A stretch of 5,662 bases of DNA. Origin: an uncultured Cellvibrio sp. (GTDB lineage Bacteria; Pseudomonadota; Gammaproteobacteria; Pseudomonadales; Cellvibrionaceae). Under the pieces are notes generated by a model. The model did not search any database. It saw only the letters and a program-made list of their open reading frames with translations, and had not been told where the DNA came from. Positions 1 through 5,662 of the stretch are shown here, one piece after another. Both the position numbers and the translations under genes were made by a program. Position 1 is the first letter of the stretch; each line of letters starts with the position of its first letter. Where the stretch lies: NCBI GenBank assembly GCA_946481735.1, contig CAMLOU010000198.1, positions 1 through 5,662 on the forward strand, in the 5' to 3' direction.

Positions 1-1233
1 CAGCGACCGCTGTCGCTGTATTTCCATATTCCGTTTTGCGACACCTTGTGTTTCTACTGCGGGTGCAACAAGGTGGTCACGCACACCAAAAGCCGCGCAG
101 AACCATACTTGCGCCGTGTCGAAAAAGAAATGGCCATGCAGGCGCAGTGGTTTGATACCGGCCGCCCGGTCAAACAATTACATTGGGGCGGCGGTACGCC
201 AACCTTTATCAGCGATGACGAAATGACCTGGTTGATGGCTGCTACCCGGCGGCACTTCAATCTGATGGACGATGACTCGGGTGAATACGCCATTGAGATT
301 CATCCCGGTCGGGTCAGCGCGAGTACCATGAAACATCTGCGCAAATTGGGTTTCAACCGCGTCAGCATGGGCGTGCAGGATTTTGACTTGCGCGTGCAAA
401 AAGCGGTGAACCGCTACAACACCGTGGAAGATGTCAGTGCGCTGGTCAATGCGTTGCGTGCCCAGGCTTATCATTCCATCAGCATGGACCTGATTTACGG
501 TTTACCCCTGCAAACACCACAGAGCTTTTCGACCACGCTGAACAAGGTGATAGAGCTGTCGCCTGACCGGTTATCCTTGTTCAACTACGCCCATTTGCCA
601 CATTTATTCAAAAGCCAGGCGTTGATCAAAGACAGCGAGTTGCCTTCGCCGCAGCAAAAACTCGATATTCTGGCGATGTCGATCGAAACATTGCAAAACG
701 CCGGTTATGTGTACGTGGGCATGGATCACTTTGCCAAACCGGATGACAGCCTGGTCCAGGCGCAGCGGGCAGGGGTGTTACAGCGCAATTTCCAGGGTTA
801 CTCCACCCACGGTGATTGCGATCTCCTGGCCTTTGGTGTGTCATCAATCAGCGCCTTCGGTGGAGTGTACGTGCAGAATGCCAAGCTGGTTGAGCTGTAC
901 CAGCAATTAATTGATGCAGACAAACCGGCCTCGGTGCGCGGCTTCACCTTGAGCGATGAAGATCATCTACGGCAGTTTGTGATCAATCAGTTGATCTGCC
1001 ATTTCTATCTCGATTTTGATCAGGTACAGCAACGCTTTGGTGTCAATCCAGCGGTTCACTTCGCCGCTGAATTAGCGGAGCTTATGCCGATGGTGGAAGA
1101 TGGGCTATTGACCCTGAGCGATAAAGGAATTCAGGTACACAACACGGGACGATTGCTGATCCGGCGTGTGTGTATGGTATTTGATGAATACCTGAACAGC
1201 GGCAGCGGGATTCGTTACTCAAAAGTGATTTAA
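1..1233 (+). CDS. hemN: Oxygen-independent coproporphyrinogen III oxidase (radical SAM), 5' end cut by window edge
   Basis: The frame is open from base 1, giving 410 residues; E. coli HemN is 457, so about 50 N-terminal residues lie outside the window. HemN is a cytoplasmic enzyme that oxidatively decarboxylates two propionates of coproporphyrinogen III to give protoporphyrinogen IX without oxygen. The [4Fe-4S]/SAM motif CDTLCFYCGC (C-x3-C-x2-C-x-C, bases 37-66) follows RPLSLYFHIPF, as in true HemN and unlike HemW. Also visible are HWGGGTPT, the SAM-contacting Glu at 295-297, GFNRVSMGVQDF, MDLIYGLP, FNYAHLPHLF, LPSPQQKLDIL, MDHFAKPDD, RNFQGY and the C-terminal end YSKVI. The segment usually reading E-V-D-P-R is E-I-H-P-G here. 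The gene is convergent with the moa genes. Haem supply for anaerobic cytochromes explains its place beside nitrate-respiration genes. Identity is near certain; full-length integrity cannot be judged. Confidence 0.95.
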   Translation, partial: QRPLSLYFHIPFCDTLCFYCGCNKVVTHTKSRAEPYLRRVEKEMAMQAQWFDTGRPVKQLHWGGGTPTFISDDEMTWLMAATRRHFNLMDDDSGEYAIEIHPGRVSASTMKHLRKLGFNRVSMGVQDFDLRVQKAVNRYNTVEDVSALVNALRAQAYHSISMDLIYGLPLQTPQSFSTTLNKVIELSPDRLSLFNYAHLPHLFKSQALIKDSELPSPQQKLDILAMSIETLQNAGYVYVGMDHFAKPDDSLVQAQRAGVLQRNFQGYSTHGDCDLLAFGVSSISAFGGVYVQNAKLVELYQQLIDADKPASVRGFTLSDEDHLRQFVINQLICHFYLDFDQVQQRFGVNPAVHFAAELAELMPMVEDGLLTLSDKGIQVHNTGRLLIRRVCMVFDEYLNSGSGIRYSKVI

Positions 1234-1240
1234 GGCGAGT

Positions 1241-1386
1241 TCATTCTCCGATCACCGTGGGAAAGTACGCTATTTCATCATCAGGGAAGATGGGCTCCTC
1301 TAATGAAGCATTCCATCCAGACCTAACTGTTCCCGCAAATTCGCAAAGAATAAGATTCTTAACTTGTCTATTCCCGACTTGAGCAC
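1241..1386 (-). pseudogene. moaD: Relic of moaD, the molybdopterin synthase small subunit
   Basis: Seen directly: immediately after moaB, one leftward frame reads KLRILFFANLREQLGLDG (codons from 1365 down to 1312) and stops at TAG 1302-1300. A second frame, from about 1318 to the TGA at 1243-1241, reads GWNASLEEPIF then PDDEIAYFPTVIGE. These match the start (K-V-L-F-F-A-x-x-R-E-L-x-G) and end (D-G-D-E-V-A-F-F-P-P-V-T-G-G) of MoaD, an 81-residue ubiquitin-like sulfur carrier. About 35-40 middle residues are absent and the two halves are out of frame. The terminal Gly-Gly that carries the thiocarboxylate is Gly-Glu. No ATG precedes the first half; a GTG at 1386 overlaps the moaB end, and an ATA at 1371 sits where a start would be expected. 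Deletion, frameshift and loss of the catalytic tail together argue for a dead gene, not a sequencing error. The order moaB-moaD fits known Moco clusters. Confidence 0.8.
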
Positions 1387-1907
1387 ATCGGCTGCTGGAT
1401 TAAATGCGGAACAAAATTACAAGGGCCTTGCCGCGCGTCGAGTTGTTTTTTGAGTATTTGCTCCCATCCTGTGCGACACGCACCGGTAGATCCCGGTAGA
1501 CAACAAACCAGTGTACGATTGGCGAGGCCGGCTATCGCACGGGACTGAATTGTCGAGGTGCCGATTTCCTCCCATGAGAGTTGTCGGAACAGTTCACCAA
1601 AACCTTCAATTCGCTTATCAAATAAAGGTATTACGGCTTCCGGTGTTGAATCTCTTTCAGTAAAACCGGTTCCGCCGGTAATCAATATGACTTGTACTTC
1701 TTCGGCAGCGATCCATTGCGATACCCGTGCACGAATCTGATAAATGTCATCTTTTACCAAGGATCGTTCGACGAGTAAATGCCCTTCGGTTTTCAAGGCG
1801 TCAATCAAATAAGCACCGGAAGTATCATTTTCAAAGTTGCGGGTATCGGAAACCGTGAGTACTGCAACTCCCAAGGGAATGCGTTCATGTGAACGTGAAT
1901 GCGCCAT
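1368..1907 (-). CDS. moaB: Molybdopterin adenylyltransferase-family protein MoaB
   Basis: The protein has 179 residues (E. coli MoaB 170) and is homologous to MogA/Cnx1G, which adenylylate molybdopterin before molybdenum insertion; it is cytoplasmic. Visible marks in order are VAVLTVSDTR (14-23), NDTSG (27-31), ILITGGTG (74-81) with the GGTG ligand-binding loop, ERDSTPEA (84-91), EGFGELFRQLS (101-111), GTSTIQSRA (117-125), LPGST (137-141), ACRTGWE (143-149) and the MoaB-type tail PCNFVPHL (162-169). The tail and overall match are closer to MoaB than to MogA. The ATG at 1907-1905 has a good ribosome binding site, GGAG, five bases upstream. It starts 26 nt after the moaA stop, so co-transcription is likely. 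In many bacteria without MogA, MoaB-type proteins do the adenylylation; whether a mogA exists here is unknown. The last ten residues or so are variable and overlap the moaD relic. Confidence 0.95.
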   Translation of the reverse strand: MAHSRSHERIPLGVAVLTVSDTRNFENDTSGAYLIDALKTEGHLLVERSLVKDDIYQIRARVSQWIAAEEVQVILITGGTGFTERDSTPEAVIPLFDKRIEGFGELFRQLSWEEIGTSTIQSRAIAGLANRTLVCCLPGSTGACRTGWEQILKKQLDARQGPCNFVPHLIQQPMCSSRE

Positions 1908-1933: not shown

Positions 1934-2914
1934 TTAGCCGCCGATCATCGCTAACTGGCGGGTCGATCCTGTATAGCCTTGATGTAAATTATGTGAAACA
2001 GTTTTTTCGCTGACATTATGTTTCAAGTAATTCAATAGTTCCCCGTTATGCCGGTCAGCTTGCAGAAACGAGCGGAGGTTTTGATGATTGTCTGCGAAAA
2101 GACACAGGAACAACTTGCCATCACTGGATACACGCAAGCGATTACAGGTGGTACAGAAATCTTTACTGTAAGGCATGATTAGCCCAATGCCGCCGCGATA
2201 AGCAGGGTGAAAAAATTCCCTTGCGGGCCCTGCGTGTGATGGTCGTTCACGCTCCTGCCAACCGCGTGAAAGGCACCTTTCAACGATACTTGTACCGCTC
2301 AGGTGGTGGCGATCAAAAAACTCACGATTGTCACCCGTCTGCATCAGCTCAATAAAACGAACCGTTAGCGGGCGAGTGCGAACAAACTCAAAAAAATCAT
2401 CCAGGGTGTCATCATTAAACCCTCGCATTAACACACTGTTGACTTTTATGTTTGAAAAACCAAGTTCTTCAGCCAGTGCGAGACCTTTAAGTGTTTTTTG
2501 CAGTTTGTCATGGCCGGTAATCATTTCGAAACGAGCGGCATCCAGGCTATCCACGCTCACATTGATTGCATCCAGGCCAGCCGCTTTCCAGGCTGGCAAA
2601 TCTTGTAACAAACGATAGCCATTCGTGGTAAGGGCAACCTGTTCAATTCCGGGTACAGCTTTGCAGGTGGCAATAATATCGGGCAGGTCTCGACGCAACG
2701 AGGGCTCGCCGCCGGTGATTCGTATCTTGCGTGTTCCAAGCTGTGCGAACGCAGTTACCAAGCGACGGATTTCGGGCAATGTGAGATCCTGTACACGGCG
2801 AGCTGTATCACAATCGGTGCCTTCGGGAAGGCAATAGTTACAACGGAAATTGCAGGCTTCAGTGACAGATAAACGTAAATAAGTGAAACGTCGCGCGTAC
2901 TGGTCAATCAACAT
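1934..2914 (-). CDS. moaA: GTP 3',8-cyclase MoaA (radical SAM)
   Basis: MoaA converts GTP to 3',8-cyclo-7,8-dihydro-GTP, the first step of molybdenum cofactor synthesis; MoaC then makes cPMP. I choose the ATG at 2914 (326 residues, E. coli 329). It puts AAGG about eight bases upstream, whereas the GTG at 2923, three codons earlier, lies on top of that same Shine-Dalgarno sequence. Numbered from this ATG, the N-terminal cluster motif is C21-x3-C25-x2-C28 (ACNFRCNYC), the SAM motif GGEP is at 68-71, and NVSVDSLD follows near 118. The second [4Fe-4S] cluster, next to which GTP binds, is C254-x2-C257-x13-C271 with the NRLRVSS arginines between. The chain ends in the conserved Gly-Gly (MIGG), which the family needs for activity. 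All key residues are present, so the enzyme looks functional. It follows moeA after a 192-nt gap holding a gene relic and a hairpin, and precedes moaB by 26 nt. Confidence 0.97.
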   Translation of the reverse strand: MLIDQYARRFTYLRLSVTEACNFRCNYCLPEGTDCDTARRVQDLTLPEIRRLVTAFAQLGTRKIRITGGEPSLRRDLPDIIATCKAVPGIEQVALTTNGYRLLQDLPAWKAAGLDAINVSVDSLDAARFEMITGHDKLQKTLKGLALAEELGFSNIKVNSVLMRGFNDDTLDDFFEFVRTRPLTVRFIELMQTGDNREFFDRHHLSGTSIVERCLSRGWQERERPSHAGPAREFFHPAYRGGIGLIMPYSKDFCTTCNRLRVSSDGKLFLCLFADNHQNLRSFLQADRHNGELLNYLKHNVSEKTVSHNLHQGYTGSTRQLAMIGG

Positions 2915-3104
2915 AAGTGGCACCTTTCCGTAGCTCTGTGAGAGCTAAATGCAGGAGGTCGCGTTGATGGTAAGGATAACCTTGAAGTAACGGGTTTATT
3001 ATCCATCTCAAGTAGCAGCTGTTGTACCTCGTTGGGGGTATGGCTAAACGTGAGGTATGTGCGTTAAGCAACAACGCGTTTCCGTATGCGACGAAATCAA
3101 TCTC
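2908..3104 (-). pseudogene. Probable C-terminal relic of mobA between moeA and moaA
   Basis: Seen directly: just after the moeA stop, one leftward frame (3104 to 3054) reads EIDFVAYGNALLLNAHT. A second frame (from 3042) reads HTPNEVQQLLLEMDN and stays open to a TGA at 2910-2908 that overlaps the moaA start. The two frames meet at a direct repeat, CATACC, at 3059-3054 and 3042-3037, offset by 17 nt. Removing one 17-nt unit joins them without a break into a D-F-x4-x-A-L-L-L-N-A-H-T-P-N-E-V pattern. This resembles the conserved end of MobA (V-D-F ... A-F-x-N-I-N-T-P-E-E-L), the Mo-molybdopterin guanylyltransferase. The roughly 160 N-terminal residues, with the GGxxxRMG nucleotide-binding loop, are missing. 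The mobA identity is my inference from a short match; that the spacer holds broken coding sequence is better supported than its name. The residues after the stub, down to 2908, I cannot assign. Confidence 0.42.
2931..2947 (-). promoter_or_regulatory. Hairpin next to the moaA ribosome binding site
   Basis: TAGCTCT-GTG-AGAGCTA is a perfect inverted repeat with seven-base arms and a three-base loop. In the leftward transcript it ends one base before the CGGAAAGG stretch that contains the moaA Shine-Dalgarno, about 16 nt before the ATG. It lacks a following U run, so it is not a normal terminator. It could mark an mRNA processing end or affect access to the ribosome binding site. Function is inference. 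Confidence 0.35.
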
Positions 3105-3106
3105 AG

Positions 3107-4354
3107 TTATTGAATAAAACGATCAAAGGGAAGAATGTTAACCGTGTCGTGTTGATTCACCGAGCTGCGCCCCCGTTCCAATACGATATAACAATCCGCA
3201 TTACTGAAAGAGGTCATCACACCTGAGCCTTGTGCTCCCGTGGTATTCACTAAGAGGTTGCCTTCGCTGATGGTCAGTCGACCGCGCTGATAATCCGTGC
3301 GACCAGGTCGTTTTTTTATGATTGATCCGGCGTTCGCCACGAAGGTTGCTGGCGGGGCAACCTGTTCACCAGCCATACGGCGAAGGATGGGGAGTGCGAG
3401 TTGGTGAAGCGTGACCATGGCAGAAACCGGATTTCCCGGCAAACCAAAAAAATAACTCCGCCCTATCTGGCCAAAGGCAAAAGGTTTTCCAGGTTTGATT
3501 GCGACTTTCCAAAAATTTATTTGCCCTAGCTCGCCCAGCACGTCTTTTACATAATCCGCATCGCCGACAGAAACCCCGCCAGTGGATATTACGGCGTCGG
3601 CTTGTTCAGCTGCATCAATAAAAGCGTTGCGAAGGGTGTCGGGCTGATCCGGAATCAATCCCACATCAATGACCTCCACATGCAAACGTTGGAGCAGGGC
3701 AATGATGCTGTAGCGATTGCTGTCGTAAATACTGCCGGAGGGTAAGGCCTCGCCAGGTGGTATGAGTTCATCACCGGTAGAAAGCACGGCGATGCGAAGC
3801 CGCCGAAACACATCGACTTCCGCCATGCCCAATGAAGCGATTAATCCAATATCCAACGGATTCAGGCGTTTTCCTTTCGCTATAACTACATCACCCTCGG
3901 CGATGTCTTCACCGCGTTGACGAATGTTTTCCAGGGAGCGTGGATGTTGGTTCAGCTTGATGAATTGACGATCACCTGCGTTTATAACGTCGACATTTTC
4001 TTGCATGACGACACAATTAGCACCAGCAGGAATGGGAGCGCCAGTCATGATCCGTATGCAGGTTCCCGGTACCACTTCGCCGTCAAACGGATGGCCAGCC
4101 AAGGCGCTTCCGATCAGGCGCAGGCTCTTGGGTAACGCGTGTGTGTCATCAAGATGTATCGCGTACCCGTCCATTGCAGAATTTGCCTGGGCGGGCACGT
4201 TGAACTGCGCGATGAGGTCGTGTGCCAATACTCGATCAAGCGCTTGCATGAGGCCGATTCGCTCAATATGAGTCACCGAGGTCACGCGGGTCTTCATCTG
4301 CGCTAAGGCATCTTCAATGGGTAATAAATGATGCTCGTCGCAACAGCTTTTCAC
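3107..4354 (-). CDS. moeA: Molybdopterin molybdenumtransferase MoeA
   Basis: MoeA inserts molybdate into adenylylated molybdopterin, releasing AMP and giving active Moco; it acts as a cytoplasmic dimer. The product has 415 residues (E. coli 411). In order: substrate motif NSAMDGYA (58-65, Asp62), CIRIMTGAPIPAGA (99-112), VVMQE (115-119), RGEDI (147-151), the MoCF-domain motif STGDEL (192-197, Asp195), YDSNRY (210-215), STGGVSVGDADYVK (257-270, Asp265), KPGKPFAFG (287-295), GLPGNPVSAMVT (304-315), and C-terminal domain IV with RTDYQRG and TTGAQGSG. All expected acidic and lysine residues are present. The start is GTG at 4354, backed by a strong AGGAGGT six bases upstream; the next Met is residue 20, too far in. 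The CCDEHH stretch at residues 4-9 is a Cys/His-rich tip that I believe occurs in other nitrate-linked MoeA copies. It begins 28 nt after narL stops, so the two are probably one transcript. Confidence 0.97.
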   Translation of the reverse strand: MKSCCDEHHLLPIEDALAQMKTRVTSVTHIERIGLMQALDRVLAHDLIAQFNVPAQANSAMDGYAIHLDDTHALPKSLRLIGSALAGHPFDGEVVPGTCIRIMTGAPIPAGANCVVMQENVDVINAGDRQFIKLNQHPRSLENIRQRGEDIAEGDVVIAKGKRLNPLDIGLIASLGMAEVDVFRRLRIAVLSTGDELIPPGEALPSGSIYDSNRYSIIALLQRLHVEVIDVGLIPDQPDTLRNAFIDAAEQADAVISTGGVSVGDADYVKDVLGELGQINFWKVAIKPGKPFAFGQIGRSYFFGLPGNPVSAMVTLHQLALPILRRMAGEQVAPPATFVANAGSIIKKRPGRTDYQRGRLTISEGNLLVNTTGAQGSGVMTSFSNADCYIVLERGRSSVNQHDTVNILPFDRFIQ

Positions 4355-4382: not shown

Positions 4383-5030
4383 TCACTCGCCAGATTTGTG
4401 GTTGACCATCCATACGGCGGCTTCAACCCGCGAACGAAGGCCCAATTTTTTCAGTAGATGTTTGACGTGGACTTTTACGGTGCCGTCGGAAATGTCCAGT
4501 TCCCGAGCGATCAATTTATTGCTCAGGCCTTTTGCGATCAGCTTGATGATGTCGCGTTCGCGACTGGTGAGGCTTTCTAATGACGCGAGCGGATTTTTTT
4601 GTGGTTTGCGAATAGCGCTGGCCAATACTTGCGTTACGGCTTCGCTCATGACCAGCTTGCCTTGCAAGGCCCGCTGGATGTGTTCAAGTAATTGTTCCGG
4701 TTCCATATCTTTCAATAAGTAGCCGTCCGCGCCACGTCCGATGGCTTCCAGAACATCCTCATCGGCATCCGAGACTGTCAACATGACGATGCGGGAGGTG
4801 ACGCCTTGATCCCGCAAACGACTCAAGGTCTCCAGGCCATTCATGCCTTGCATATTCAGATCCAGCAGAATCAGATCCGGGTCCAGTTCAACGCCCAGTG
4901 TGACGGCGTCCGCTCCGTTACTTGCTTCACCAACCACCTCCAGATCATCTGCCAGGCTGAGCAGTTGTTGTAAGCCTTTGCGCAACAAAGGGTGGTCGTC
5001 GACAAGTAAAACAGTGGAGGTTTGCGTCAT
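4383..5030 (-). CDS. narL: Nitrate/nitrite response regulator NarL
   Basis: The product has 215 residues (E. coli NarL 216). It has an N-terminal receiver domain (about 5-125) and a C-terminal LuxR-type helix-turn-helix (about 150-210). Acidic pocket Asp11/Asp12, phosphoacceptor Asp57 in LILLDLNM, Thr85 and Lys107 (GYLLKDMEPE) are all present. The DNA-binding part reads LTSRERDIIKLIAKGLSNKLIA and then GTVKVHVKHLLKKL, where Lys186, Val187 and Lys190 align with the E. coli base-reading residues, so it should recognise TACYYMT heptamers. When phosphorylated by NarX or NarQ, NarL activates nitrate-respiration genes. The usually conserved proline after LNM is Gln61. Start: ATG at 5030 with GGAG seven bases upstream. 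It heads the run narL-moeA-moaA-moaB and is divergent from the narK-like gene. The cognate sensor gene narX, normally adjacent, is not in the window. Confidence 0.95.
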   Translation of the reverse strand: MTQTSTVLLVDDHPLLRKGLQQLLSLADDLEVVGEASNGADAVTLGVELDPDLILLDLNMQGMNGLETLSRLRDQGVTSRIVMLTVSDADEDVLEAIGRGADGYLLKDMEPEQLLEHIQRALQGKLVMSEAVTQVLASAIRKPQKNPLASLESLTSRERDIIKLIAKGLSNKLIARELDISDGTVKVHVKHLLKKLGLRSRVEAAVWMVNHKSGE

Positions 5031-5303: not shown

Positions 5304-5662
5304 ATGCTGCATCAGGAACTCAGACACGGAGGAAATTCCACATTCTTCCATCTACGGGCCGGTTTAATCAGCGGTTATGTATTGTGTGGGCATGGCGTGT
5401 GGTTGAGCTGGAGCGTTGTGGCTGTCATGTTGCTGCAAGTCGGTTACCCCTATTCCCTTAACGGACTTTTTTCCCTTATCACGATTGCCGGGATGGCGGG
5501 CGGCAGCCTGCGGATTGCCTTGGGGTTTTTGCTGCCCCAGTTTACCTCGCCGTGGGCGTTGGGGTCGTCTATGGCTTTGCTGGTACTTCCAGCCCTTGGC
5601 ATGGCGGTGGCTTTGCAATACGAAACCACGCTAGGGACGTTGCAGGTGCTGGCGTTGTTGAG
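5304..5662 (+). CDS. narK: NarK-like nitrate/nitrite transporter (MFS), 3' end cut by window edge
   Basis: The frame runs open from ATG 5304 to the right edge, giving 119 residues of a protein that is usually 400-480 long. An in-frame TGA at 5289-5291 limits the start. The first membrane segment (about 21-45) contains GVWLSWSVVAVMLL, matching the NarK pattern V-W-x-x-W-S-V-V. The second (about 55-77) contains GGSLRIALGF, where Arg70 aligns with the substrate-binding Arg89 of E. coli NarK (G-x-L-L-R-V-x-Y-S-F). A third hydrophobic span covers 85-104. The family exchanges nitrate and nitrite across the inner membrane, and the divergent narL supports that role. Oddities: the loop after segment 2 is PQFTSPW instead of the usual F-G-G-R, and the best ribosome binding site, GGAGGA (5328-5333), lies inside the reading frame. 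Other MFS subfamilies are possible, but context and the Arg motif favour NarK. The start is less certain than the identity. Confidence 0.75.
   Translation, partial: MLHQELRHGGNSTFFHLRAGLISGYVLCGHGVWLSWSVVAVMLLQVGYPYSLNGLFSLITIAGMAGGSLRIALGFLLPQFTSPWALGSSMALLVLPALGMAVALQYETTLGTLQVLALL

Follow-up and report, generated by a model that had tools for sequence, protein, structure and literature searches.

The spacer between hemN and moaB in this DNA contains a dead moaD. In the window, by which we mean the whole 5,662-nt stretch of an uncultured Cellvibrio sp. that was analysed, the two ends of a MoaD protein (approximately the first 18 and the last 20 residues) are kept in two reading frames directly after moaB, while about 42 of the 80 residues are missing. 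We consider it very likely that the spacer is a fairly recently decayed moaD pseudogene of the nitrate cluster, a copy that would have been redundant with a moaC-moaD-moaE set elsewhere in the genome. The features of the window, compared with Cellvibrio sp. PSBB006, are as follows.

1 to 1233, plus strand: hemN, cut off at its 5' end by the window edge; it converges on the moaD remnant, with the stop codons 7 nt apart.
1241 to 1306, minus strand: C-terminal piece of the moaD remnant, (S)LEEPIFPDDEIAYFPTVIGE and stop, from translation, tblastn and alignment; Gly-Glu in place of the terminal Gly-Gly.
1303 to 1311, minus strand: deletion junction inside moaD, with 121 nt (net) missing relative to PSBB006; ends good to a few bases, flanks diverged.
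1310 to 1362, minus strand: N-terminal piece of the moaD remnant, (L)RILFFANLREQLGLDGM; the frame runs on to a TAG at 1302-1300.
1368 to 1907, minus strand: moaB, 179 aa, intact; 90% identity to PSBB006, dN/dS 0.13.
1934 to 2923, minus strand: moaA, intact; 93% identity to PSBB006, dN/dS 0.04.
3107 to 4354, minus strand: moeA, intact; 93% identity to PSBB006, mosaic at the DNA level; dN/dS 0.25.
4383 to 5030, minus strand: NarL-type response regulator, intact, with response-regulator and LuxR-type domains; protein 99.5% identical to PSBB006.
5304 to 5662, plus strand: first part of a transporter gene, aligned with a PSBB006 ORF of 531 aa.

The regulator at 4383 to 5030 was named NarL by context. 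The PSBB006 ORF aligned with 5304 to 5662 suggests a NarK-like transporter; Pfam gave no match for the part of this gene inside the window. A megablast search of the window against plasmid records gave no match.

The spacer is 134 nt long and lies between the hemN stop codon, ending at 1233, and the moaB stop codon (1370-1368). On the minus strand, one frame reads ...KLRILFFANLREQLGLDGMLH and a stop, is open over 1416-1303, with a GTG in frame at 1386; another reads SLEEPIFPDDEIAYFPTVIGE, open over 1306-1244, with its stop at 1243-1241. With the intact PSBB006 MoaD as query, tblastn matched the N-terminal piece at 1362-1315 (E 5.0e-6) and the C-terminal piece at 1306-1247 (E 5.5e-7), both E-values referring to a search of the window only. 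Both pieces were also matched by a MoaD HMM made from three sequences (E 1.4e-4 and 1.8e-4). The two halves scored 70 and 77; when the 134-nt spacer was dinucleotide-shuffled 1000 times, the best scores were 34 and 37, and no shuffle reached either observed score. A Pfam scan of each piece alone (28 and 21 aa) gave no match, the pieces being too short. The preliminary description, which had placed a dead moaD in this spacer with both ends of the protein in two frames, is borne out by the translation, the tblastn matches and the shuffle control.

From start to stop, the remnant measures 122 nt (1362-1241) versus 243 nt in PSBB006, and this net internal loss of 121 nt breaks the moaD reading frame. 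The middle third to half of the gene had been proposed as missing; the deletion itself stands, but alignment with the intact protein puts its extent at slightly more than half. A TTA is found at 1362-1360, where the PSBB006 gene has its TTG start, with the GTG remaining upstream, and a 1-nt gap relative to PSBB006 lies just upstream of the remnant's start position. The remnant ends in ...TVIGE and a stop, the final Gly having become Glu; this replacement, also described earlier, was read both in the minus-strand translation and in the alignment with PSBB006. The terminal Gly-Gly is present in all 38 of the MoaD rows in the alignment used for a 38-row tree. The remnant has neither the single open frame of ~80 ubiquitin-like residues nor the C-terminal Gly-Gly of a functional MoaD. 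The C-terminal Gly-Gly of MoaD is thiocarboxylated, and the deletion alone would be expected to abolish MoaD function. In PMC4326299, the terminal glycine of MoaD is given as the sulfur carrier, and substitution of the terminal glycine in MoaX is described as producing a non-functional MoaD-like subunit.

It is very unlikely that the break is an artefact of assembly or sequencing and that an intact moaD is really present. The window contains no N and carries lesions separate from the deletion, namely the TTA at the start position, the 1-nt gap upstream, the terminal Gly to Glu change and seven changes among 30 otherwise shared residues (see below); what favours an artefact is a comparable case, the moaC of the relative G028, whose only break proved to lie on an NN gap in the scaffold. 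We regard as extremely improbable the suggestion that the short frames retain a use, for instance by encoding a 28-residue peptide that begins with the GTG at 1386, or that the spacer is an RNA element between the convergent moaB and hemN. Although that GTG is in frame and the N-terminal piece is less changed than the C-terminal piece, loss of the middle would be expected to take away most of the ubiquitin-like core, judging from alignment to E. coli MoaD (1fm0), and we infer that the 28-residue peptide could not be MoaD. Moreover, Rfam at gathering scores gave no match in the window, and the 110 moaB loci surveyed, three of which (from two genomes) have moaD directly after moaB, yielded no comparable short form.

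An intact counterpart of the decayed gene was found in relatives. A search of genome contigs with the window MoaB returned 230 relatives, and the best 80 of the 230, all with ≤72% identity, were taken; the top-ranked of these 80 was Marinimicrobium alkaliphilum (MoaB 71% identical), in which the same order, narL-moeA-moaA-moaB-moaD, includes an 82-aa moaD immediately after moaB. A further MoaB search covered 144 genomes of the family of M. alkaliphilum, 137 of which gave a match, and identified PSBB006 (G026) as the closest relative found, with a MoaB 90% identical to that of the window and 86.5% DNA identity across moaA-moaB. PSBB006 (L081/L111) also shares the order of the window, and its nitrate-linked moaD is intact: it encodes 80 aa from a TTG start, ends in VTGG and lies 6 nt after moaB. 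The comparison of loci proposed earlier thus yielded an intact moaD at the corresponding position in PSBB006, and the ends of the deletion can be read within a few bases. Two metagenomic sources contributed MoaB proteins (P0001 and P0002) that are 99% identical to that of the window.

Several further observations concern the PSBB006 locus. In databases, its nar-linked moaD (L111:8970-9212) is represented by a 66-aa 'hypothetical protein', CBR65_00915, with a shorter N-terminal end than the 80-aa TTG frame. The moaA-moeA spacer of PSBB006 has ~126 nt that are absent from the window (window position 2960, compared with L111). The window hemN is closest (89%) to the PSBB006 hemN at 1.115 Mb (L134 and L136 were examined); a second PSBB006 hemN (83%) lies ~18.5 kb from moaD, beyond the nar genes, and ~450 nt past moaD there are, instead of hemN, two IS3-like transposase pairs, named from reading of the proteins.

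PSBB006 carries a second moaD in a moaC-moaD-moaE set, together with the only moaE and the only moaC of the genome, and a third PF02597 match, weaker than the two moaD, that we read as thiS. In a 26-row MoaD tree, in which the remnant occupies 46% of columns, the remnant grouped with the PSBB006 nitrate-linked moaD and P0122 with support of 100/99, apart from the moaE-linked copy. P0122 is an intact metagenomic MoaD, one of only three proteins that a search with the PSBB006 nar-linked MoaD gave at E 1e-6, and is identical to the N-terminal piece over RILFFANLREQLGL. At 7 of the 30 residues common to PSBB006 MoaD and P0122, the last residue included, the remnant differs. The grouping of the window-type moaD with other moaB-linked copies had weak support both in the 26-row tree (66/66) and in the 38-row tree (95/76), which contains fewer housekeeping copies. 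Because the moaB-linked moaD of M. alkaliphilum groups weakly with the housekeeping copies in the 26-row tree (60/92), moaD may have come to lie next to moaB on more than one occasion. We do not take it as proven that the moaB-linked moaD copies all share one origin, given support of only 66/66 and the placement of M. alkaliphilum elsewhere. The M. alkaliphilum genome has a moaC-moaE pair (L142, G001 contig C3) without a moaD between the two genes, and, apart from a weaker match that reads as ThiS-like, its nitrate-cluster moaD (L001:7546-7794) is the sole PF02597 match.

Relative to PSBB006, dN/dS is 0.04 for moaA, 0.13 for moaB, 0.25 for moeA and 0.006 for narL. All four frames are open with values of 0.006-0.25, and the decay is therefore confined to moaD. 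Such constraint is not shared by every neighbour, as the transporter start gave a dN/dS of 1.26, on 14 differences. For the 36 remnant codons dN/dS is 0.14, with a dN of 0.14 that is ~3-4 times the dN of moaA and moaB. As the ratio for the remnant is still low, most of its divergence would predate the loss and the lesions would be young; moaD probably persisted through most of the period after the split from PSBB006 and was lost late. A crude ratio, likely an overestimate, assigns ~0.2 (relative to moaA) to 0.5 (relative to moaB) of the window's branch to neutral change. Changes found only in the window affect 1 of 17 N-terminal residues versus 7 of 20 C-terminal residues (Fisher p 0.048, on a tiny sample), an unevenness that runs against the prediction of simple neutral decay and may be due to chance. 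We also observed that dS relative to PSBB006 is ~0 to 0.04 in the first ~276 codons of moeA (gene 3107-4354) and in the transporter start (5304-5662), 0.5-0.75 in the last third of moeA and 0.9 in moaA, with an abrupt shift between ~3400 and ~3530; this mosaic identity in the moeA/transporter region looks like recent recombination.

The survey of moaB loci comprised 110 loci, 80 from genome contigs (the best 80 of 230) and 30 from the family search, four of which (L083, L091, L095 and L109) also occur in the first set; downstream coverage was 0.6-7 kb. The MoaD HMM placed moaD 6-7 nt after moaB in three loci (two genomes), 371-551 nt after in 32, 2843 nt after in one and on the other strand in two, and detected no moaD within the 0.6-7 kb downstream in 72 of the 110. 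No other piecemeal moaD was found at E < 0.05 in these 110 loci, with an HMM that does detect the two pieces in the window.

Among 11 further Cellvibrionaceae moaA-moaB stretches of ~10 kb each, moaC, moaD and moaE follow moaA-moaB in four (G018, G023, G031 and G032) and also in G028, whose moaC is interrupted by an N gap. The ~10-kb stretches of the remaining six (G064, G066, G050, G123, G131 and G130) showed no moaC, moaD or moaE. At the moaA-moaB loci of PSBB006 and M. alkaliphilum, moaD stands alone, without moaC or moaE. We saw moeA or narL in only five of the 11 stretches (G018, G023, G032, G064 and G050); the other six are relatives by MoaA-MoaB alone and not established nitrate clusters. 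The moaB-linked moaC of G028 was considered as a second decaying gene and rejected, as its ~150-nt loss coincides with two N at L147:1501-1502, an assembly gap.

This series of loci suggests stepwise loss, in a direction that we infer and with weak support in the MoaD trees (66/66; 95/76), and the window's lineage would have had an earlier moaE. The preliminary description had the cluster losing its molybdopterin synthase genes; this holds for moaD and in part for a wider loss, five of the 11 loci having moaC-moaD-moaE and six having none of them. The same six loci could be taken to mean that moaD died as part of the decay of the whole nitrate and molybdenum cofactor cluster, an explanation that is most unlikely when the window has full-length moaA, moaB, moeA and narL, each with dN/dS ≤0.25, and the six relatives themselves keep moaA and moaB.

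The pseudogene is probably the result of the loss of a spare moaD copy, otherwise ordinary gene loss. The nitrate-cluster moaD would have been redundant with a moaC-moaD-moaE set elsewhere in the genome, as seen in PSBB006, and the MoaA, MoaB and MoeA of the cluster would now rely on the molybdopterin synthase from that set. We speculate, with less confidence, that the window could capture a middle step in a process by which Cellvibrionaceae dismantle their nitrate-linked molybdopterin synthase stepwise: moaC and moaE would have gone first, moaD would be dying, and moaA and moaB would be kept. The uncertain nitrate-cluster status of six of the 11 loci compared tempers this reading. If it were true, extra MoaA and MoaB would raise cofactor supply in nitrate respiration, and one shared MoaD-MoaE would be enough. 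An apparently empty spacer is gene debris, which amends the gene list of the cluster and suggests that the cofactor steps kept in extra copy near the nitrate genes are MoaA, MoaB and MoeA, and not MoaD-MoaE. Literature searches on PSBB006, moaD pseudogenes and moa-narG redundancy found no publication on this locus, and none was found that treats Cellvibrio molybdenum cofactor, nitrate reductase and moaB together.

The two pieces match both ends of MoaD, the small subunit of molybdopterin synthase (PF02597; E. coli, PDB 1fm0 chain D), and the remnant is positioned after moaB like the moaD of PSBB006 and M. alkaliphilum. Unlike MoaD, the remnant lacks a start codon at the matching place, ~42 of 80 residues, a continuous frame and the terminal Gly-Gly. 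Several moa copies in one genome are also described, in PMC4326299, for Mycobacterium tuberculosis, for example moaD1, moaD2 and moaX; in both cases a single cofactor pathway has multiple MoaD-type genes. In M. tuberculosis, according to the same work, the copies were tested for activity by complementation, whereas the copy described here is a small remnant known from sequence alone.
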